Source: an uncultured Pelagibacteraceae bacterium (lineage in GTDB: Bacteria; Pseudomonadota; Alphaproteobacteria; Pelagibacterales; Pelagibacteraceae). Taken from it: a stretch of DNA of 64,000 nt. The DNA lies in NCBI GenBank assembly GCA_902533445.1, contig CACALX010000001.1, positions 62,001 through 126,000 of the forward strand. The letters are read 5' to 3'. Shown here piece after piece: positions 240 through 10,983 of the stretch. The notes beneath the pieces are model-generated. The model searched no databases. It saw nothing but the letters and a program-made list of their open reading frames with translations, and was not told the origin of the DNA. Numbering within the stretch: the stretch's first letter is position 1; every line of letters starts with the position of its first letter. The translations under genes were made by a program, and so were the position numbers.

Positions 240-1544
240 CTAATAATTTGGAATATTTAATGTTTTATCGTTAACTAAAATTTTATTTCCCATTATTTTT
301 ATAGAAGCTTTTTGACGATCACCTAAGCTAATAGATACAAGTTTTTCCAATACCACCTGTTGTTTATCGAGAGTAATTCCTTTTGAATTAAACAAGTCAT
401 GATCTGCACCCAATCTTTTTTTAACTTTTAAAACTAATAGATCAGAAAATATCCCTGAACCTCCACTGTTTGACTGTGTTTTTAAAACCATTGCACCATT
501 ATCCGTAGTCCCATAATAAAAATATAAAAAATAACCTTCACCATTTGGATAGTTAATTGAAACGACAGGCTTTCCTTCATCTAATCTTGAGATTTCATAA
601 TCATCTAAAAGAGAATATTGGTTTGAATCAAATGCGTCTGAAAGATTAATTGTGATGATAATATCTCCACTATCTGCATATCCAGGAATGAAGTCCTTTA
701 TAATTTCAGGATGTACTGGATGTTTTTGATAAAAGAAATGTTTAGAAAGACATGATTTAATTGTTCCAAATTCATTATCTGATTTTTGACAAACTGGATC
801 AAGTTTGTCCAAAGTATTTTTAACATTTAAATCCGATAGAGCACTTTCCAAAGATAATTTGGCTGGTTTATAAGTTGGATCAACTTCTAAGGTTTTTTTA
901 TAATATAAAATAGCTCCATTTAAGTATCCGTTCCTATTAAGCACATGTCCTTTTTGTAGAAGTAATTTTTTATTATCTGATTGTTCCTGTATAGAAACTA
1001 GTTTTCCATTTTCCCATACTGCTGAGAATTTTGCTTTAACATCAGCAAAAACTAAGGTTCCTTGACCATGTTTTTTATTATTCTTATATTTTCCATAAAA
1101 TAATTCACTATTGTCATAAACAATTGGTTGCTCTCCTTCAAAAAATGCAACACCATCTTTAAATTGACCTACATACTCTTCACCAGTTGGTAATATTATT
1201 TTACCTTTGCCGTTCTCCTTATCATTTTTCCATTCACCACTATATTTGAGTCCATTCTTATATCTAATTGCACCAGAGCCACTTTTTTTATCATCCTTCC
1301 ATTGACCTATATAAAGGATACCATCTGCTTCATCTGTGAATGTACCTTCACCATGTCTTTTGTCATTTTTAAATTCACCTTCATATTTTTTAAAATTCCA
1401 ATAAATTAAAGTTCCTTTACCCTCACGTTTTCCATCAACTAATTTTCCAATGTATTCATCTCCGTTAGGATAGAAAAAAGATTCAGCTAAACTAAAATTG
1501 GACCATGATAAAATAATTGTCAGGATTAAAAAAATTTTCTTCAT
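240..1544 (-). CDS. Secreted MORN-repeat protein
   Basis: Signal peptide followed by repeated Y-x-G-x-(W/F)-K-x-x-K-x-x-G-x-G units (e.g. YIGKLVDGKREGKGT, YEGEFKNDKRHGEGT, YSGEWKNDKENGKGK). Confidence 0.85.
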   Translation of the reverse strand: MKKIFLILTIILSWSNFSLAESFFYPNGDEYIGKLVDGKREGKGTLIYWNFKKYEGEFKNDKRHGEGTFTDEADGILYIGQWKDDKKSGSGAIRYKNGLKYSGEWKNDKENGKGKIILPTGEEYVGQFKDGVAFFEGEQPIVYDNSELFYGKYKNNKKHGQGTLVFADVKAKFSAVWENGKLVSIQEQSDNKKLLLQKGHVLNRNGYLNGAILYYKKTLEVDPTYKPAKLSLESALSDLNVKNTLDKLDPVCQKSDNEFGTIKSCLSKHFFYQKHPVHPEIIKDFIPGYADSGDIIITINLSDAFDSNQYSLLDDYEISRLDEGKPVVSINYPNGEGYFLYFYYGTTDNGAMVLKTQSNSGGSGIFSDLLVLKVKKRLGADHDLFNSKGITLDKQQVVLEKLVSISLGDRQKASIKIMGNKILVNDKTLNIPNY

Positions 1545-2059
1545 TTAAATTTTTCTATTTTAACTGAATAATCGATACCATTAAATGATGGTTTTTTATC
1601 GTCAAATTTTAGGAAATAAGCTTTTATAAAGTGTTTTCTAGATCCTGTACCCCAATTTGTTCCTTTTAATTTTATCTCACTTAAACCATCACTATTTAAA
1701 TCTTCAATCTCTACACTTCTTGGTGCAAATGTTTGGGTTTGATCAAATTCTTTAATATAGAATGTTGTTTCTTCGCTAACTAATATTACAGGATTATTTT
1801 CTTCAATATAAAATATATAAAACTGTCCACTTTTAGTGTCCTCTCTTCCTGCGTAATAAAATTTATATCCATTATCAGTGGTTTTAATATCGACGATTCC
1901 TGAAAAAAAGTTATTCATTATATCTGAACGCTCTTTAAATTTCTTATAAAGATCATTGTTTGAAAGATTTTTGTTTATAAAATCACTGCTTACCTCTCCT
2001 GCAAAAGTTACTGTCGGCAGAAATAGAATTAAAAATATTACTAGTTGAACTTTTCTCAT
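1541..2059 (-). CDS. Secreted hypothetical protein with FG-GAP/EF-hand-like DLNSDGLSEIKL motif
   Basis: Signal peptide, overlap with the MORN gene, D-x-N-x-D-G motif. Confidence 0.7.
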   Translation of the reverse strand: MRKVQLVIFLILFLPTVTFAGEVSSDFINKNLSNNDLYKKFKERSDIMNNFFSGIVDIKTTDNGYKFYYAGREDTKSGQFYIFYIEENNPVILVSEETTFYIKEFDQTQTFAPRSVEIEDLNSDGLSEIKLKGTNWGTGSRKHFIKAYFLKFDDKKPSFNGIDYSVKIEKFK

Positions 2060-2073
2060 TTATTCATCCAAAT

Positions 2074-2385
2074 TTAATTTTTTCTAATTTTTAAAAAGCA
2101 GTAAATATAAATACCTGAAGTAACAAAGTTAATTGGCATCCATATTTCTCTAGTTAAATTTACTGGAATAACTGGATTGTATAAAATTGCAATTAGTCCA
2201 AATAAAATTGTTATTTCGTTAATACCTCCTGCAGCTTTAACATTATATATAATTATAATTATTGACGTTATTGTTACGATCAATCTCAAAAACATATAGA
2301 AACCATACGGAAAGCTAATAAGAGGGGCTAAAATTAATAGAACTGCAGGTATTATTAAAAAAAGATTTAAAGAATTTTTATTCAT
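2074..2385 (-). CDS. Small multi-pass membrane protein, unknown
   Basis: ORF with several hydrophobic segments, overlaps the next gene. Confidence 0.6.
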   Translation of the reverse strand: MNKNSLNLFLIIPAVLLILAPLISFPYGFYMFLRLIVTITSIIIIIYNVKAAGGINEITILFGLIAILYNPVIPVNLTREIWMPINFVTSGIYIYCFLKIRKN

Positions 2386-2773
2386 TACTAACTCTATATT
2401 CCATTAAATAATAATAAAATGTAATAAGCATAATCACATCTCTAACAAAACTATTTATCATAAAAGAAAGGTTTACCTCAGATGAAGTGATTATATTTTC
2501 ATATCCAAAATAGATCATCATTAATACAGGTACAATTAGAGTGAATTTAAAATTAAAATTCTTATAAATTTTTGAAATTGCAAAAGCTGAAAAGTAACCT
2601 GCAACATATCCAGAAATAGCAAAGAAAATAAATTCACTGCCAATTTGCATGTTTCCTGAAAAAAAATTGGCAAACGATGCAAAAAGTCTACTTCCTAATT
2701 GTCCAATTAACATTCCAATAACCGCTGTTAATGGAAACAGCAATGAAACTAAAACACTTAGAAATTTATTCAT
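2378..2773 (-). CDS. Small multi-pass membrane protein, unknown
   Basis: ORF with hydrophobic segments, 1 nt from the next gene. Confidence 0.6.
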   Translation of the reverse strand: MNKFLSVLVSLLFPLTAVIGMLIGQLGSRLFASFANFFSGNMQIGSEFIFFAISGYVAGYFSAFAISKIYKNFNFKFTLIVPVLMMIYFGYENIITSSEVNLSFMINSFVRDVIMLITFYYYLMEYRVSNE

Positions 2774-2774
2774 T

Positions 2775-3224
2775 CTATATTGATATTTGTTCTTTATACC
2801 CGCTTATTTTAATGACTTCATCATGAAGTTTTTTAGCTTTAGGACCTGCTCTTGAGTACTGGTTATCTAAAAAGAAAGCTTCAACTTCCATGTTGTTATA
2901 GTCAAAGTTTAAACTAAACCCTCCATAATCCATTATACCAATAATCCTATAATTAAATTTACTCCATGTTTTTCTATCTTCTGCTTCAATTGAAGGTGTG
3001 ATCCATCTATGAGCACCAGAATATGTTAAATCAATTTTATGATCAAAAAATTCATCCTGAATAATTCCAATTCTGAATTTAGCCAACTCTTTGGTAATAT
3101 CTTCCTTACTAAAATTTTTTTTATTTTTTTTTAACTGATCTAAAATGTTCCAAACTTCTTTAGTGATACCAACTATTTCTTTTGCTAATTTTTCAATCTC
3201 TTTATTTTTAAAAAGACCAAACAT
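2775..3224 (-). CDS. Hypothetical cytosolic protein
   Basis: ORF in a same-strand gene run; no family recognised. Confidence 0.6.
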   Translation of the reverse strand: MFGLFKNKEIEKLAKEIVGITKEVWNILDQLKKNKKNFSKEDITKELAKFRIGIIQDEFFDHKIDLTYSGAHRWITPSIEAEDRKTWSKFNYRIIGIMDYGGFSLNFDYNNMEVEAFFLDNQYSRAGPKAKKLHDEVIKISGYKEQISI

Positions 3225-3333
3225 TCTAATTATTTTTTCTTAGTTACTTTTTTAGTTTTTTTCATTGGCTACTAGAATATATTGCATACGCTAAAGCTAC
3301 AAGTTCAATAGCTATAACTACTTCAAGCATTCA

Positions 3334-3684
3334 CTAAATCTTAACAACAGGAAAGTTAGAATGAGTAAATGATATTAATATTAACCACAGTATAAATATA
3401 AGTCCCATTATAGATCTAGCTTTCCACTTTTCAGTTGCCTCAAGGTAATAGTGAAATCTTGCAAATCTTCCATCGTTAGTATCAGCTAGATACAATATGG
3501 AATATATAACGACAAAATTAATACTGTAATTAATAAAATTATCTAAATTTCTATCCATTTCATGTATCAACCAAAACCAAAGAAGTGGGTAAACAGGATA
3601 AAAAAACACACTGAATGTAGGAGGAAAAACCCATTTCTTTAAAAATAATTTATAATTTGTATTAGATTTTTTATTATCATTCAT
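3334..3684 (-). CDS. Small membrane protein, unknown
   Basis: ORF with at least two hydrophobic segments, 1 nt from the next gene. Confidence 0.55.
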   Translation of the reverse strand: MNDNKKSNTNYKLFLKKWVFPPTFSVFFYPVYPLLWFWLIHEMDRNLDNFINYSINFVVIYSILYLADTNDGRFARFHYYLEATEKWKARSIMGLIFILWLILISFTHSNFPVVKI

Positions 3685-3685
3685 A

Positions 3686-4861
3686 TTAATTTTTAATACG
3701 TTTTATTTTTCCTGACTTGTAGTTGTATTTTCTTCGATGTGTTGAATTAAAATTTGTTATCAATAAATCGTTATCAGCAATCATTTCTGCCTTTAAACCT
3801 CTGTCATTAGAACCTTTAATGTACCAATATTTATTTTTATAAATTATCAAAGCTTCAGAAGTGTAGACACAATTTTCACCACACTTTTGATCTACTATAG
3901 AGCTCATCTCATATCTTTCATAAGAGATGTTTTTTGAAATAGATTTTAAAGTTTTTTTATTTTGAATAATATTTTGAGGCATCAAAGGTTTATCTGATGA
4001 ATACGATTTAACCGGAAAAGTTTTATGATGTTTTTCAAACTTTTTTGATAAACAATCAATATCCAGATTTTCACCAACAAAGACCTCGACCTCTGTAATA
4101 CTAGTTTCTGTAAAATTGTAAGAACGTTTATATTTACTACACGCTCCTAAATATTCTGCGTAAGTAGCGGACTGATCAATATATCTTTTATCCAAGTCCA
4201 TTATTTGGATATAATTATTCTCATAGAACGAGGTAACTATAGCAGTCATTGTTCGAGCACCCATCGAATTGGAGCCATCAATCTGAAATCTAATAACAAG
4301 ATCCATGAAGTCATCTTTGTTTGCATCTGCATAAAAATAATCAATAATATTTATCCAGTTATTTTTAAGATCTGCATCATCTTTGTATTTAATTGTATTT
4401 GGATCATATGTTGTTATTTCCTCCACACCGCACCTTCTGCTTATGTCGTAAAAAGTAATTCTTCTCTCTTTTTTGATGTTTATTTTGCATGTGTAGTAGG
4501 GATTGTTTGGGATGCTTATTCTTAATGAGTTGTTTTTAAGAAATTTAAAATCAAGTTTTTCTAAGTCTAAAGCAGCCCATCCATCTTGAATATAATCATA
4601 CTTAGCCTCTGACTTAAATTCAGCACGCATACCAATGGTCTCACAATAATTCTCTATTGAGAATGCTATGTTCAAGGTCATCTGATCAAGTTGACTTAGA
4701 TCTATGTTGCTAGATTTATATTGATTACAGATACCTAAAATTTCAGTTGTATTTAACTTTTTGTCTAATAGCTTTTCGTTAAAATCATAAACTGCATCAT
4801 TAGAAATTGCAGGTGTTAAATATAAAAAGCATAAAAAAATAATTCCTAAAAGCTTTTTCAT
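3686..4861 (-). CDS. Secreted hypothetical protein with VCBS/EF-hand-like YADANKDDFMDLVI motif
   Basis: Signal peptide, 391 aa ORF, D-x-N-x-D-D-x-x-D motif. Confidence 0.7.
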   Translation of the reverse strand: MKKLLGIIFLCFLYLTPAISNDAVYDFNEKLLDKKLNTTEILGICNQYKSSNIDLSQLDQMTLNIAFSIENYCETIGMRAEFKSEAKYDYIQDGWAALDLEKLDFKFLKNNSLRISIPNNPYYTCKINIKKERRITFYDISRRCGVEEITTYDPNTIKYKDDADLKNNWINIIDYFYADANKDDFMDLVIRFQIDGSNSMGARTMTAIVTSFYENNYIQIMDLDKRYIDQSATYAEYLGACSKYKRSYNFTETSITEVEVFVGENLDIDCLSKKFEKHHKTFPVKSYSSDKPLMPQNIIQNKKTLKSISKNISYERYEMSSIVDQKCGENCVYTSEALIIYKNKYWYIKGSNDRGLKAEMIADNDLLITNFNSTHRRKYNYKSGKIKRIKN

Positions 4862-4885: not shown

Positions 4886-5002
4886 CTATTCAACCAGCTC
4901 AAATTTTTTATATTTTAAAAACTTAACGTTATTAACAACATCTAATGAAAGCCTAATATTCCTATCCTCTTCTAAAGCAATGATTAATTTACCGTATGCC
5001 AT
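4886..5002 (-). CDS. 38-aa small ORF MAYGKLIIALEEDRNIRLSLDVVNNVKFLKYKKFELVE
   Basis: ATG overlaps the TGA stop of the DUF3883 gene (5002-5004); stop at 4886-4888. Below the ORF track size cutoff. Confidence 0.45.
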   Translation of the reverse strand: MAYGKLIIALEEDRNIRLSLDVVNNVKFLKYKKFELVE

Positions 5003-5898
5003 CAGTTTTTAGATATTACAAAACCATCACTTTCAACTTTCCATTCTAAATTATTCTTAAATATGGATTTATCGATATTTGTAATTTTAAGTAATTTATT
5101 ATAGTCAAATTTATCTGGGTTACTTTTATCTACCGGAAGCAAGTAAATAAAATACTTATCTTTTAATTTATTTGCAGTTTGTTTTTCTTTAACACTTAAA
5201 TGAAATTCGTAATTGGATTTAGAGATAGCTTTTACCTCAATATATATTTTTTCAACCCTATCATCTTTTTTCTCAAAACTTTGTATATCATATCCAGCAG
5301 ATACATCTCTTAAAGCTACATGATCAACTTTTAATGATGGACTGATTTGATCTACCTTGTCTTGCTCTTTTTTAAATATTAATTTTTCAGCATCATCACC
5401 TAATTGTTTTTTATCTTTTAATATTTTTTCAAGTTCACTCGGAGAAAATTCTTTATTTTTGACAAATTCTAACAAAGAATTATCTAGAATAAAGTAAGAA
5501 CCATTTTTATAATCTATTTTTTTTGATGATATTAAAAAGTTTCTTAGATCACTTGAAAGATTATTGTAAAGAGAATCTGGTTCAAAAATATATAAACCAT
5601 CTTTGAATGTAAAATTTAAAAGATATTCTTTTAAACACTGACCATAGTCAGATTTTTTTGATATTTTCCCAAAAAGCACTTTATCAAAGCTATTCTTGTC
5701 TAAATTATCTATTAAAATATTGTTTCCATTAATCCTAAGGAAATTTATATCAATTAAAAAATTTAAACTTTCTCTTAAATATTTATTTTTTTTTGAATAT
5801 TCAATTTTTACAAGTTCTAGATATTTAATTTGTCTACAAATTTCATACAAATCTGAGAGGCGTTTATAATCAATCTTTTCGAATAATTCATAGCTCAT
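5002..5898 (-). CDS. DUF3883-domain protein (PD-(D/E)xK-like)
   Basis: C-terminal GDDAEKLIFKKE...SAGYDIQSF...IYIEVKA...FHLSVKEKQTAN...YFIYLLPV matches the DUF3883 pattern. Confidence 0.75.
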   Translation of the reverse strand: MSYELFEKIDYKRLSDLYEICRQIKYLELVKIEYSKKNKYLRESLNFLIDINFLRINGNNILIDNLDKNSFDKVLFGKISKKSDYGQCLKEYLLNFTFKDGLYIFEPDSLYNNLSSDLRNFLISSKKIDYKNGSYFILDNSLLEFVKNKEFSPSELEKILKDKKQLGDDAEKLIFKKEQDKVDQISPSLKVDHVALRDVSAGYDIQSFEKKDDRVEKIYIEVKAISKSNYEFHLSVKEKQTANKLKDKYFIYLLPVDKSNPDKFDYNKLLKITNIDKSIFKNNLEWKVESDGFVISKN

Positions 5899-7745
5899 AG
5901 CTCTAGATCATTATACAATTCTTCCCAACTTTCATCTTCATCATTTAAATCAAATGTAAAATTTTCTTCTTCAATAATTCTCATTTGTCTATCAGCTTTA
6001 TGAAAAACCTTGTTGTAGACCTTGATATCTACTGAATCATTATAATGTAAAAAATCATACTCTACTGGATTATCTTCCGAACCGCCAACTCTATGAATTC
6101 TATCCAAGGATTGTAGAAATTCAGCCGCATTGTAGCTCAAATCATAATAAATGGCGTTTGTACATGCTTGATGTAAAGAAATAGACTCAGCACATGATTG
6201 AGGTGTTGCAACAATTGCATCAAGACTGGATTCTTTATCATTAAAATCTATTTTAATATTTTTCCTTTGATCAAGATCAGTCTCACCAATAATTTTTTCT
6301 GCTCTAATATTATTTAAAGTTAATTCTTTATGAATTAAATCAACTGTTTTCAGATGGGTAGACCATATAAGTACCTTTTTGTTTTTAAACTTAAGATTTT
6401 TAACTATTTCTAATAGTTTCAGTAATTTTGCTGGTTTTTCTAACTCATCATATCTTGCAATTATTCCTGATATATTATTGGTAATTAAATTTTCTTTTTG
6501 AAAAACAAGATTATCTTCAAGCACACTTTCAAGATTTTTTACATAAGATGCACATTGTTTTAATCTAATAATCCTAGCTTTACATATTTGTTCGATTAAA
6601 TCAGCATTATCAAAAAATTCTTTACGACCATAATCTTTTATATTTGTTACAATTGCATCATAAATTTGTTTTTCGTAAGGATTCATGTCTACTAATATAG
6701 GTGGATTAAATATTTGCTTTGCTAAATTTAAATCGTTCTTAGTTACTCTAACAAAGTAAGGATTAATTTTCTGGCTTACAAATTCAATCGCTTCTTCATT
6801 GTTTTCTTTATTTAAAAGAAATTCAACTCTACTTTTATCTTCAGATGTTAAAACTTTATCTTGGCCATATAAAAAATCTAAATAATTAAATATATCTCTC
6901 AGATCATTCGGCACTGGTGTACCTGTAAGCACAACTTTAAATTCTGAACAAGCTGATAACTCTAAAATTGCTGATGACCAGGTACCTTCAATTTTTTTTA
7001 TATAATGAGCTTCATCAATTACTAGTAAGATTTTATTTCTTGAAAAAAAGCTTTTTAATAAATCTATATCTCTGGTCACAGTTTGAAAGTGAGATAATAT
7101 TAAATTTGATGTTAAAATTTTTTCATAAAAAAGTTGTCTATCATCTGGATCCGGACCAAGTATTTTCATTTTTGGTTTCTGATTAAAATTTTTATAGAAT
7201 TCAAATTCCCAAGAACCAAAAGCATTTTTTGGTCCTATAACAAAAATTGCATCAACTTTATTTTCAAGCCTTAATTTTTCAAAGTATGCAAGTACGACTG
7301 ATGTTTTTCCACTACCTGGTACAGAAAAATTTGCTGCTGATCCAGCAGAATATAAATGAAACAAACTATTAATTTGGTGATCAACAAGATTTCTATATAA
7401 AAAATTAATTGTCTTATTGAAATTATTTAATTCATCTTTGCTTTCCTTGTTTTTAATTTTAGAGATTAAATTTGCTTTATTTCTAAATTGCTCTCTCTCT
7501 GCTTTAATCTTATTCAAATAATCATCTAATTCATTATTTAGAATGATATGAATTTTGTTTTTTTCTAAAAATTTAACTATTTTCTCCATATTTATTAAAT
7601 CAATAACTGAAGAATATTTTATTTTTTCTTCTGACTCTTCTTTGTTGAGATTAAAATATTTCAATTGAAAGATTATTTTATCAGGTGGTCTTTGATCAAA
7701 AATAATTGAAAAATTATTTTCTTTTAAATTAACTTTTGCCTTCAA
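5895..7745 (-). CDS. SNF2-family DEAD/DEAH-box helicase
   Basis: Walker A VPGSGKTSVVLAYF, Walker B VIDEAHYIKK, motif III LTGTPVPNDLRDIFNYLDFLY, motif VI LQSLDRIHRVGG. Confidence 0.9.
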   Translation of the reverse strand: MKAKVNLKENNFSIIFDQRPPDKIIFQLKYFNLNKEESEEKIKYSSVIDLINMEKIVKFLEKNKIHIILNNELDDYLNKIKAEREQFRNKANLISKIKNKESKDELNNFNKTINFLYRNLVDHQINSLFHLYSAGSAANFSVPGSGKTSVVLAYFEKLRLENKVDAIFVIGPKNAFGSWEFEFYKNFNQKPKMKILGPDPDDRQLFYEKILTSNLILSHFQTVTRDIDLLKSFFSRNKILLVIDEAHYIKKIEGTWSSAILELSACSEFKVVLTGTPVPNDLRDIFNYLDFLYGQDKVLTSEDKSRVEFLLNKENNEEAIEFVSQKINPYFVRVTKNDLNLAKQIFNPPILVDMNPYEKQIYDAIVTNIKDYGRKEFFDNADLIEQICKARIIRLKQCASYVKNLESVLEDNLVFQKENLITNNISGIIARYDELEKPAKLLKLLEIVKNLKFKNKKVLIWSTHLKTVDLIHKELTLNNIRAEKIIGETDLDQRKNIKIDFNDKESSLDAIVATPQSCAESISLHQACTNAIYYDLSYNAAEFLQSLDRIHRVGGSEDNPVEYDFLHYNDSVDIKVYNKVFHKADRQMRIIEEENFTFDLNDEDESWEELYNDLEL

Positions 7746-9160
7746 TTTAAATTTTCAGTTTCTTTTTTGAAATCTGCTAAGGAACGAGTACCTTTTTTAA
7801 GATTTTTAGGATGTTTTTTCTTAGCGGCAAATAATGTTGCATGTAAATCTCTGCTAGCTGTCTGTATTTTTTGACATAAGTCCATAGCTTCTTCGATATC
7901 ATTGTCATTAATTAGTCTTTTTATTTGATCTTCATCTAAGTGTTTGTGGTCAAATTTTTTTAAAGCCTCTTTTAATCTATCGATTGGTCCATCTTGCTGT
8001 TCCTGTTTCTTGTCTAATCTTGTGAGTGCTTTAACAAGATTTGATACTTCACCTGCTCTTTTATGTTGCCAAGCTCTATCTTTTTCGTCTGCATCTTTAT
8101 ATCCATCACCAACATCTTCAATATCTGCTAATTTTAAAAAATCATCTTTAAATTCCATCCACCCTTTAATCTCTCTTATTATGTCTGTATGTCTTTTGAA
8201 ATTAGCAACTTTTGGATCTTTAAGTTTTATTAAATTAAAGCACGCTTGTGTAATGGCACCTTGGTCATCTGCACTATATCCAAAATTTTGTAAAAAAGTT
8301 TTAAAGGATTTGTTATCAAATTTAGAAATAATTTTTTGATTTAATTCTTTGAAAGATTCCCATCTGTGTTCAATTTTTTTGTAGTCACCTTTCATTCCAT
8401 TAGACTCTAAATATAAATCTATAAGATCTAATGTTCCAAAATTTTCAGTTTTCCAATCTTTAACTTCTTTTTTAAAATCTTTTTCTGATAATTCAGAAAA
8501 ATTTGGATCATCATTTAATAGTTCTTCCAACTCAACAGTTCCATCAGTATAGGATCTAAATGAAAGTACTTTATTCATAACTGAATATTCAGACCAACCA
8601 TCTCTTCTCATTTGAAGTCTGTTTTCTAGCAAGGCAATATCAACATGTGTCGGTGCATCACTTAACATGTTTCCTTTTTCATCATGACCAGGTAAAATTA
8701 TAACATTGATATATTTGTAACTCTCTCTATCTCTTTTTTGTGTTTCAAATAATTTACCTAAAGCCCATCTCCTTCTATTTCCATTTATTAAAAATCCATC
8801 TGCAGTAATTATTGCTGGTTCAATTTGACCTGTACTTTTTAAAGATTTCATCAGCTCTTCATTTTTTGCTGGATCAGATTTTTCTAAAAAACTAGCAATC
8901 TTTTTTTGATCTTCTGATGACAAGTCATCAAGAGGTTTCTCTCGGGTTGCATGAGTTAAGGTTTCAGTTTTAATTCTCCCATTCTCAGATCTAAATCTAC
9001 AGTATTCAATTGCTATTCTGTATATTGGGGATTTTTTACCAGTTTTTTTCCAATCTTTATATTCAATAGTATCTTCACCTATTGGATCACCTTTGGCGAT
9101 TGAAATGGCTTTTTCAAACTTATCATTAATAACAAGTTTTTTATCTGTTATTATTGTCAT
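7742..9160 (-). CDS. ParB/sulfiredoxin-like domain protein with a long helical C-terminus
   Basis: N-terminal LKSTGQIEPAIITADGFLINGNRRRWALGKL matches the ParB-N GxxINGxRR signature; 4-nt overlap with the helicase gene. Confidence 0.8.
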   Translation of the reverse strand: MTIITDKKLVINDKFEKAISIAKGDPIGEDTIEYKDWKKTGKKSPIYRIAIEYCRFRSENGRIKTETLTHATREKPLDDLSSEDQKKIASFLEKSDPAKNEELMKSLKSTGQIEPAIITADGFLINGNRRRWALGKLFETQKRDRESYKYINVIILPGHDEKGNMLSDAPTHVDIALLENRLQMRRDGWSEYSVMNKVLSFRSYTDGTVELEELLNDDPNFSELSEKDFKKEVKDWKTENFGTLDLIDLYLESNGMKGDYKKIEHRWESFKELNQKIISKFDNKSFKTFLQNFGYSADDQGAITQACFNLIKLKDPKVANFKRHTDIIREIKGWMEFKDDFLKLADIEDVGDGYKDADEKDRAWQHKRAGEVSNLVKALTRLDKKQEQQDGPIDRLKEALKKFDHKHLDEDQIKRLINDNDIEEAMDLCQKIQTASRDLHATLFAAKKKHPKNLKKGTRSLADFKKETENLN

Positions 9161-9218: not shown

Positions 9219-9425
9219 TTATATAGCTTTTACTTCTTTAGCGTTTGCATGATAGCAGCTCTTACAGATACTTCCCGTATTGTATTCGAATTCAGAAAAT
9301 ACTATTGTGAAGTTTCTTTTAGCAATTTCAGTTCGATCAGAATTACAAAAAATACATCTATCGTATTCGACATTTTCAAATACCGATTTATGGTTCTCTT
9401 TGCCTGTGCCTCTGTACCATGCCAT
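9219..9425 (-). CDS. 68-aa putative zinc-binding protein (CxxC...CxxC)
   Basis: MAWYRGTG...RCIFCNSD...ICKSCYHANAKE; two CxxC pairs; 58 nt upstream of the ParB-like gene, same strand. Confidence 0.55.
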   Translation of the reverse strand: MAWYRGTGKENHKSVFENVEYDRCIFCNSDRTEIAKRNFTIVFSEFEYNTGSICKSCYHANAKEVKAI

Positions 9426-9609
9426 TTGAAATAAATTTTTTAAAAAATTTTTTACCTTTCACTTTAGAACATAGTTTAAAATTTCTGGTTTGTGAATCCG
9501 CTGCTGTTGAAAAACCAAAATGAATTTGGGACCCATAAGTGTTTCAACTCTAGTAAAGATAAGCATATAATCTAAAGGTTGTTTTTATTTAGGAAAGGTC
9601 ATTAATCGT

Positions 9610-9697
9610 CCATAGAGCCATTTTAAGACTCGTTCGGGACCCCTCTTCAACAAGTGAACCATGGTGAACTTAGCGGAGCAACAGCGACGCTCTATGG
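9610..9697. other. Unidentified structured-RNA candidate closed by a 9-bp perfect stem
   Basis: CCATAGAGC (9610-9618) pairs exactly with GCTCTATGG (9689-9697); interior is GC-rich relative to its surroundings; no intact ORF. Confidence 0.4.
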
Positions 9698-9823
9698 CCT
9701 TAGTCTAGCAAAAATTCAGAGGTAAAAATCCGCATAAAGACTCAGTTATTTAATTTAAATTTAATTTTTTCTTTAGAAATAAAAACACAATAAACATTGA
9801 TTTATTTAAACAAGTAATCCTGC

Positions 9824-9845
9824 TGTGTAGTCGATGTGTAGTAGA
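9824..9845. repeat. Two-copy 11-bp tandem repeat (TGTGTAGTCGA / TGTGTAGTAGA)
   Basis: Direct read of the sequence; 10 of 11 bases identical. Confidence 0.6.
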
Positions 9846-9925
9846 AAATAATTTAGTAGATTCACAACGAGCTAAAACTGTTATAAACTCTTGCTAAGAA
9901 AGGATAAATTTATTGGAGCTATAAA

Positions 9926-9970
9926 TTTGTAATCAATAGGTCCGCGGTTCGAATCCGTGCGGGGGCACCA
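9926..9970 (+). pseudogene. Truncated tRNA-Thr(TGT) 3' fragment, anticodon loop to CCA (probable att-site duplication)
   Basis: TTTGTAATCAATAGGTC-CGCGG-TTCGAAT-CCGTG-CGGGGGC-ACCA: anticodon loop TTTGTAA, T-arm and acceptor 3' strand are intact; no GCCCCCG 5' acceptor strand and no D-arm precede it. Confidence 0.75.
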
Positions 9971-9979
9971 TTTCTTTCT

Positions 9980-10117
9980 TTACCAAGCAGTTAACTTCAA
10001 ACACTTATCAAAATTCTCGATACGAACATAGCAACCGAAGAATGACATTAATTTAAATGCAAAAAATCCTGCGAATAAAACTAAAGCAACTATTATAATT
10101 AGATTAAATTTATTCAT
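9980..10117 (-). CDS. 45-aa single-pass membrane small ORF (MNKFNLIIIVALVLFAGFFAFKLMSFFGCYVRIENFDKCLKLTAW)
   Basis: ATG 10115-10117, stop 9980-9982; 5 nt downstream of nadK on the same strand; hydrophobic N-terminal segment. Below the ORF track cutoff. Confidence 0.5.
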   Translation of the reverse strand: MNKFNLIIIVALVLFAGFFAFKLMSFFGCYVRIENFDKCLKLTAW

Positions 10118-10122
10118 TAAAT

Positions 10123-10893
10123 CTAACTTGTTTCTTTTCTTATTTGTTCAATTTTAATTTTTTTTTGCAAACTTCTATTTTTGTCATAGAGAAGATTAAA
10201 CTTAATTTTATTATTTATTTTCACAGTAATATATTTTGCATTTCTTACTTCCAAATTATCTGCAACTGCACTAATGGGTCTCTTAGATGGATTGAGATTT
10301 GTGATAACAATTTTAGTTTTATCATTAACTATTTTACCCTTCCACCTTCTTGGTCTAAATGCGCTAATTGGAGATATGGATAAATTTTTTGAATGAAGAC
10401 TTAATATAGGTCCATGAACAGAAAGGTTGTAAGCAGTACTTCCAGCAGGTGTTGACACTAAAACTCCATCAGAAACTAATTTTTTTATAATTTGTCTAGA
10501 ACCTTGTTTAATTGATAACGAAGCTGCTTGTCTGCTCTGTCTTAATACAGAAACCTCATTAATCGCTATAGATTTTTTGATTTGATTATTTTTATTTCTT
10601 ACAATCATTTCTAAAGGAGAAATTGTAACCATATCTGCTTTAGAGAGGTTTTTTATAATATCTTTTGAGGAAAATTTATTCATTAAAAAACCATAGTTTC
10701 CAGAATTAATCCCATAGAAAAATTTATTTGAATTTTTGTTTCTTTTAAGAGTTTGGAGCATAAAACCATCACCTCCAATAACAATAGTTAAATTTTTGTT
10801 TTGAAGATTATTAGAACTAATTTTTTTTAATAAAATATTTTTTATATTTAAGGATTTCTTATTTTTATCAGAAATAATTTGCAGCTTGTTCAT
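10123..10893 (-). CDS. nadK: NAD kinase
   Basis: IGGDGFMLQTLK, NSGNYGFLMN, SDGVLVSTPAGSTAYNLSVHGPI motifs. Confidence 0.92.
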   Translation of the reverse strand: MNKLQIISDKNKKSLNIKNILLKKISSNNLQNKNLTIVIGGDGFMLQTLKRNKNSNKFFYGINSGNYGFLMNKFSSKDIIKNLSKADMVTISPLEMIVRNKNNQIKKSIAINEVSVLRQSRQAASLSIKQGSRQIIKKLVSDGVLVSTPAGSTAYNLSVHGPILSLHSKNLSISPISAFRPRRWKGKIVNDKTKIVITNLNPSKRPISAVADNLEVRNAKYITVKINNKIKFNLLYDKNRSLQKKIKIEQIRKETS

Positions 10894-10897
10894 TTAT

Positions 10898-10983
10898 TGG
10901 TGCCCTCGGCCAGACTCGAACTGGCACTCCGCAAGCGGCAAGGATTTTAAGTCCTTTGTGTCTACCAATTTCACCACGAGGGC
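10898..10983 (-). tRNA. tRNA-Leu(TAA)
   Basis: Reverse complement GCCCTCGTGGTGAAATTGGTAGACACAAAGGACTTAAAATCCTT...GCCAGTTCGAGTCTGGCCGAGGGCACCA; long variable arm and encoded CCA. Confidence 0.95.

Follow-up and report, generated by a model that had tools for sequence, protein, structure and literature searches.

Positions 9926-9970 of the window, the 64,000-nt stretch of DNA analysed here, are almost certainly the attR of a 17.3-kb integrative element put into tRNA-Thr(TGT) by its own tyrosine integrase, since the sequence has an exact duplicate within an intact tRNA-Thr, an integrase gene adjoins that tRNA and the site is empty in relatives. The type of scar is itself textbook; the proof is unusually full, since it draws on the two ends and the integrase as well as on arm sites, a sister element and empty sites. 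The reading in the initial annotation of an attachment-site scar bounding an island is thus supported by both ends, the integrase and the empty site.

The core of the attR, the orphan 3' half of tRNA-Thr(TGT), is TTTGTAATCAATAGGTCCGCGGTTCGAATCCGTGCGGGGGCACCA at 9926-9970 on the + strand, with letters exactly as first reported, and matches the 3' end of the intact gene at 45/45 positions. No complete tRNA-Thr was found in the 64,000-nt window with ARAGORN and no 5' tRNA half is present beside the orphan half, so that the sequence check and ARAGORN confirm the half-tRNA originally noticed. The genome from which the window derives (G000; 1.13 Mb in 26 contigs, 87% complete) was searched for the 45-nt sequence allowing up to 3 mismatches. 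Two places matched, without a mismatch and in one orientation: C1:54597-54641 and C1:71926-71970, the second being window 9926-9970; the distance between them is 17,329 bp. The reversed 45-mer, searched as a control with the same tolerance, gave 0 matches in this genome. An intact tRNA-Thr(TGT) at C1:54566-54641 (+), 7.4 kb left of the window, contains the left copy as its 3' part; an intact + strand gene with an identical 3' end had been predicted on this side. The identity of the two copies is 46 nt counting a shared A at 9925, and repeat alignment gave a longer pair of 55 nt with 95% identity. The duplication runs from the anticodon loop as far as the CCA, and the sequence outside it is unrelated. 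The acceptor 5' strand of the intact tRNA-Thr is GCCCTTG, not GCCCCCG as had been predicted, and pairs with CGGGGGC via two G-U wobbles. The wobbles were considered as a scar of the insertion and rejected, because empty-site genomes carry the identical strand. A search of a phage collection with the 46-nt half gave matches of only 80-95% identity, mostly to the phages' own annotated tRNA-Thr genes.

The element extends over G000:C1 54642-71970 with both ends on one contig. Its host is probably a member of the Pelagibacterales (SAR11), judging from gene content and genome size. A gene encoding a trmH-type rRNA methyltransferase directly precedes the intact tRNA-Thr, and a gene encoding a 451-residue tyrosine integrase (L005:1852-3207) begins ~210 bp past the CCA, in agreement with the integrase anticipated near the tRNA. 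The deduced protein contains Arm-DNA-bind_3 (PF13356) and Phage_integrase (PF00589) domains. The integrase gene is followed by one for a HTH_17/AlpA-like protein (26.3 bits, just below the 27-bit cut-off for HTH_17), genes for several small proteins, and a gene encoding a 767-residue primase-helicase that matches DUF5906 and, weakly, TOPRIM. For the integrase, tblastn against the phage collection gave no match; the matches of the primase were all distant, covering at most 52% of its length, with ~27% identity for the best. As regards identity as a prophage, no capsid, portal, terminase, tail or packaging genes were recognised with Pfam and PHROGs among the element proteins scanned. The 17.3-kb element, with its arm-type sites, is complete-looking.

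The primase gene is followed by a minus-strand cargo block of ~9.5 kb located mostly within the window. The block includes a trio of genes encoding a protein with a weak ParB-like N-terminal region (7742-9160; PHROG ParB-like partition protein, E=0.0018; Pfam EAD11 below cut-off), a SNF2 helicase (5895-7745; Pfam SNF2-rel_dom 5e-18, Helicase_C 2e-10; PADLOC DpdE/DrmD/ZorD helicases) and a NOV_C (DUF3883) protein (5002-5898; PF13020, 8.6e-14; PADLOC TmtA C-terminus, 5e-14). The ORF list shows further small proteins in a row at 240-4861, also on the minus strand, most of them exported or membrane-bound, among them a MORN-repeat protein (240-1544; Pfam MORN 2.7e-24) and a DUF6804 protein (2074-2385; 7e-19). 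The PADLOC defence library includes components similar to the helicase and to the NOV_C protein, and no PADLOC system matched the trio at 5002-9160 as a whole. The trio is a candidate defence system.

The DNA that follows the orphan half is the core flank. Directly past position 9970 the window reads TTTCTTTCTTTACCAAGCAGTTAACTTCAAACACTTATCAAAATTCTCGA, and positions 9971-10983 encode on the minus strand a 45-residue ORF (9980-10117), nadK (10123-10893) and tRNA-Leu(taa) (10898-10983), a gene order that in relatives follows the tRNA-Thr or the last half copy. In G163, a single contig of 99% completeness, the intact tRNA-Thr is followed by CTTCTTTCTTTACCAAGCAGTTAACTTCAATCACTTGTCAAAATTCTCGA with no island between, and in G358, also free of an island, the tRNA-Thr is joined to the same flank. 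In the more distant G012, nadK lies within a few bases of the tRNA-Thr. Since the tRNA-Thr of relatives is joined directly to this flank, the results indicate that core DNA resumes at 9971. Both the resumption of core DNA at this position, where the conserved ORF, nadK and tRNA-Leu are found, and the existence of island-free relatives joining tRNA-Thr to the nadK side had been predicted.

Each end of the element contains a pair of short direct repeats. At the left, beside the integrase gene, two copies of TGTAGTCGAT are located 11 bp apart, 92 and 103 nt after the tRNA. At the right (9826-9846, + strand), TGTAGTCGAT at 9826 and TGTAGTAGA at 9837 match the left pair with the same 11-bp spacing, ~100 and 89 nt before the orphan half. 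Paired repeats at both ends are the layout of tyrosine integrase arm-type sites, and the repeats are putative integrase sites of this type. A sister element of 7.7 kb occupies the same site in G039, with an integrase 71% and a primase 67% identical to those of the window element, and has TGTAGTCAAT repeats at offsets equal to those in the window; the 11-bp-spaced repeats of both elements are TGTAGTC repeats. The two elements share a right end of ~360 bp, represented in the window by the conserved non-coding sequence at 9567-9925 (+). Two RNA candidates in the right part of the element were dropped: a structured RNA at 9600-9710, the folding of which was no better than that of shuffles (z -0.18), and a sub-threshold alpha_tmRNA match at 9385-9500 (-), with an E of 0.06 and 14.1 bits against a cut-off of 50 bits. 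The other integrase-bearing loci fetched from the genus (n = 18) were examined for 11-bp tandems, and 8 of them have exact tandems in the ~1 kb that precedes the integrase domain; in three of these 8 (L113, L115 and L116) a matching tandem pair was also found at a second position. Several of the integrase loci with 11-bp tandems near the integrase (L103, L109 and L111-L117) are beside tRNAs for Met, Arg and Asn.

The following sequence of events would account for the arrangement. Strand exchange by the integrase would take place within or beside the anticodon loop, a bracketed region in which it is placed because the block of identity begins there. The tRNA 3' half brought by the element would then restore a complete gene at the left end, with the original 3' half of the host displaced to the right end. 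The AlpA-like HTH protein may aid excision, and the DUF5906 primase-helicase may copy the excised circle by analogy with phage satellites. The genes past the primase, the ParB-like/SNF2/NOV_C trio and the MORN operon, would be passenger cargo that probably includes phage defence. The tRNA-Thr site itself is a hotspot that is used repeatedly across the genus.

In order to view the locus across the genus, 217 genomes at least 85% complete were searched for the 45-mer with up to 3 mismatches. It was present in 188 of the 217 genomes and in two or more copies in 53, a count that includes G458, with copies on different contigs, and G393, one of whose three copies is a 3-mismatch variant. Between successive copies 52 distinct segments of 584 bp to 17.3 kb were measured, of which 41 are ~2.3 kb or shorter, mostly one- or two-gene units of 0.6-2.3 kb; since the loci were picked for having two copies, these figures are not the prevalence of segment types. 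The cargo includes restriction-type proteins (Mrr, MmeI, MrcB and SAD/SRA), the PADLOC candidates PDC-S11 and PDC-S02, and trypsin-like, autotransporter, pilin-like and polysaccharide lyase proteins. Among 25 of the 57 Pfam families matched in short segments, none was a remnant of ICE/IME genes. A search for Phage_integrase in 17 cassette-bearing genomes, including the single-contig G135 and G143, gave a single match located away from the tRNA-Thr locus; this protein of ~310-325 residues is probably Xer.

Arm-type repeats were also found in segments without an integrase. An exact 7-mer tandem with a period of exactly 11 bp was present in the left end of 38 of the 52 segments, the two integrase-bearing elements included, while 0.3 tandems are expected at 11 bp from single-base shuffles and other periods give 0-1. 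The words shared by the left and right ends of one segment have a mean length of 8.9, compared to a mean of 2.5 and a maximum of 4.2 for random pairings of ends (2000 permutations), the segments not being independent since related cassettes share ends. About one quarter of the segments have no shared arm word.

These results moderately favour a reading of the short segments as non-autonomous cassettes moved in trans over one as CIME-like remnants. In full, the favoured reading is of one- or two-gene cassettes (0.6-2.3 kb) that lack an integrase, each with its own matched 11-bp arm pair and a tRNA half, mobilised in trans by element or phage integrases that differ in arm specificity, and stacked one way, the whole forming an integron-like site-specific cassette system with the tRNA gene as dock and no resident integrase; taken with all these parts, its chances are about even. 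The alternative that the short segments are decayed remnants of autonomous elements, and were not moved as cassettes as such, is possible at a distinctly lower probability. Integrase-less att-flanked elements are known to arise by decay and accretion (PMC5704250), some of the short segments have no arm repeats, and for some tRNAs with a cassette-type left end a second half copy was not found within the 7 kb fetched. Against decay, the short segments contain intact ORFs of uniform orientation, 71 of 73 in segments of up to 2.4 kb being opposite to the tRNA strand, and are very similar in size. Furthermore, the same cargo proteins are 96-98% identical between genomes in which TrmH or NadK are 73-86% identical, and the excess of cargo over core identity indicates horizontal transfer. 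Intact ORFs, a single orientation, like sizes and high cargo identity together suggest ongoing transfer as small units.

For the orphan half itself, an origin by homologous recombination or segmental duplication instead of site-specific integration is very improbable. Duplication or gene conversion could also produce exact identity over 45 bp, and homologous recombination at these repeats could reshuffle the cassette arrays of relatives, but the block runs from the anticodon loop to the CCA with unrelated sequence past both, an integrase lies beside the tRNA, the arm repeats of the two ends match and the empty site is clean. An orphan half still transcribed and functional, for example as a tRNA-derived RNA or terminator, is equally hard to credit despite its unusually good preservation, which is explained by the role as attachment site and a recent insertion, and no Rfam match was obtained for the half.

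The window element is of the Islander type, described as islands with a tyrosine integrase and an intact tRNA at one end and a displaced 3' fragment at the other (PMC4383910): it has the intact tRNA-Thr at one end, the identical displaced fragment at the other, a tyrosine integrase inside, and an uninterrupted site in G163 and G358. It is essentially the same as those islands, but the cargo differs. The element also resembles PICMI satellites, the features of which include an integrase, AlpA, a DUF5906 primase, Fis and DUF3987 (PMC10803314), in having an integrase, an AlpA-like HTH_17 protein and a DUF5906 primase, defence-like cargo after the primase and no recognised structural genes. It is unlike PICMI in its size of 17.3 kb, in having no known helper phage and in that neither a Fis regulator nor DUF3987 was found among the element proteins scanned, those of the larger ORFs; since these two were not found, the element is not filed as PICMI. 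Tycheposons, in the secondary description quoted in PMC10872708, have a tRNA border, a tyrosine recombinase, cargo, a streamlined marine host and a size of 4-200 kb, and the window element has these features as far as that description goes.

Cassettes at tRNAs are already known: the consulted passages describe, for Actinomarinales, additive flexible islands that contain direct repeats of tRNA (PMC7771536) and, for the fGI-2 of Methylophilaceae, cassettes at tRNAs that likewise have direct repeats (PMC10872708). The host lineages and tRNAs there differ from those here, and the passages make no mention of cassettes that lack an integrase but have matched 11-bp arm-site pairs. A limited literature search likewise returned no published description of matched arm sites in such cassettes. 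The short segments are comparable to CIMEs, which are cis-mobilizable, decayed ICEs/IMEs that accrete at a tRNA 3' end (PMC5704250), in being att-flanked, without their own integrase and in tandem at the tRNA 3' end; they differ in being compact one- or two-gene units of uniform orientation. The tRNA-Thr locus represents a concrete route for swapping gene sets at one fixed address in a streamlined marine lineage that otherwise has few recognisable mobile elements. The sets swapped are small, with restriction and other defence-like genes among them, and the matched arm sites make the question of which integrases move the cassettes directly testable.

The common left-end motif TCACTCAATAAAATCAACGTTAA was counted 30 times across 28 of 215 genomes and adjoins the tRNA half in nearly every case; one occurrence (G449:C9:36249-36271) has no listed tRNA half alongside and is possibly a decayed copy. 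Between tRNA-Thr and nadK, the loci L043-L093 of relatives contain tandem integrase-less segments of 0.6-2.3 kb that are delimited by the common tRNA half and the ends of which have matched 11-bp arm-type repeats. Ten loci (L043, L044, L047, L052, L053, L056, L084, L085, L088 and L090) contain a cassette gene encoding the near-identical signal peptide MKKLLGIVVLGLLLS; the gene is usually proximal to the tRNA, and the remainder of the protein differs between cassettes.
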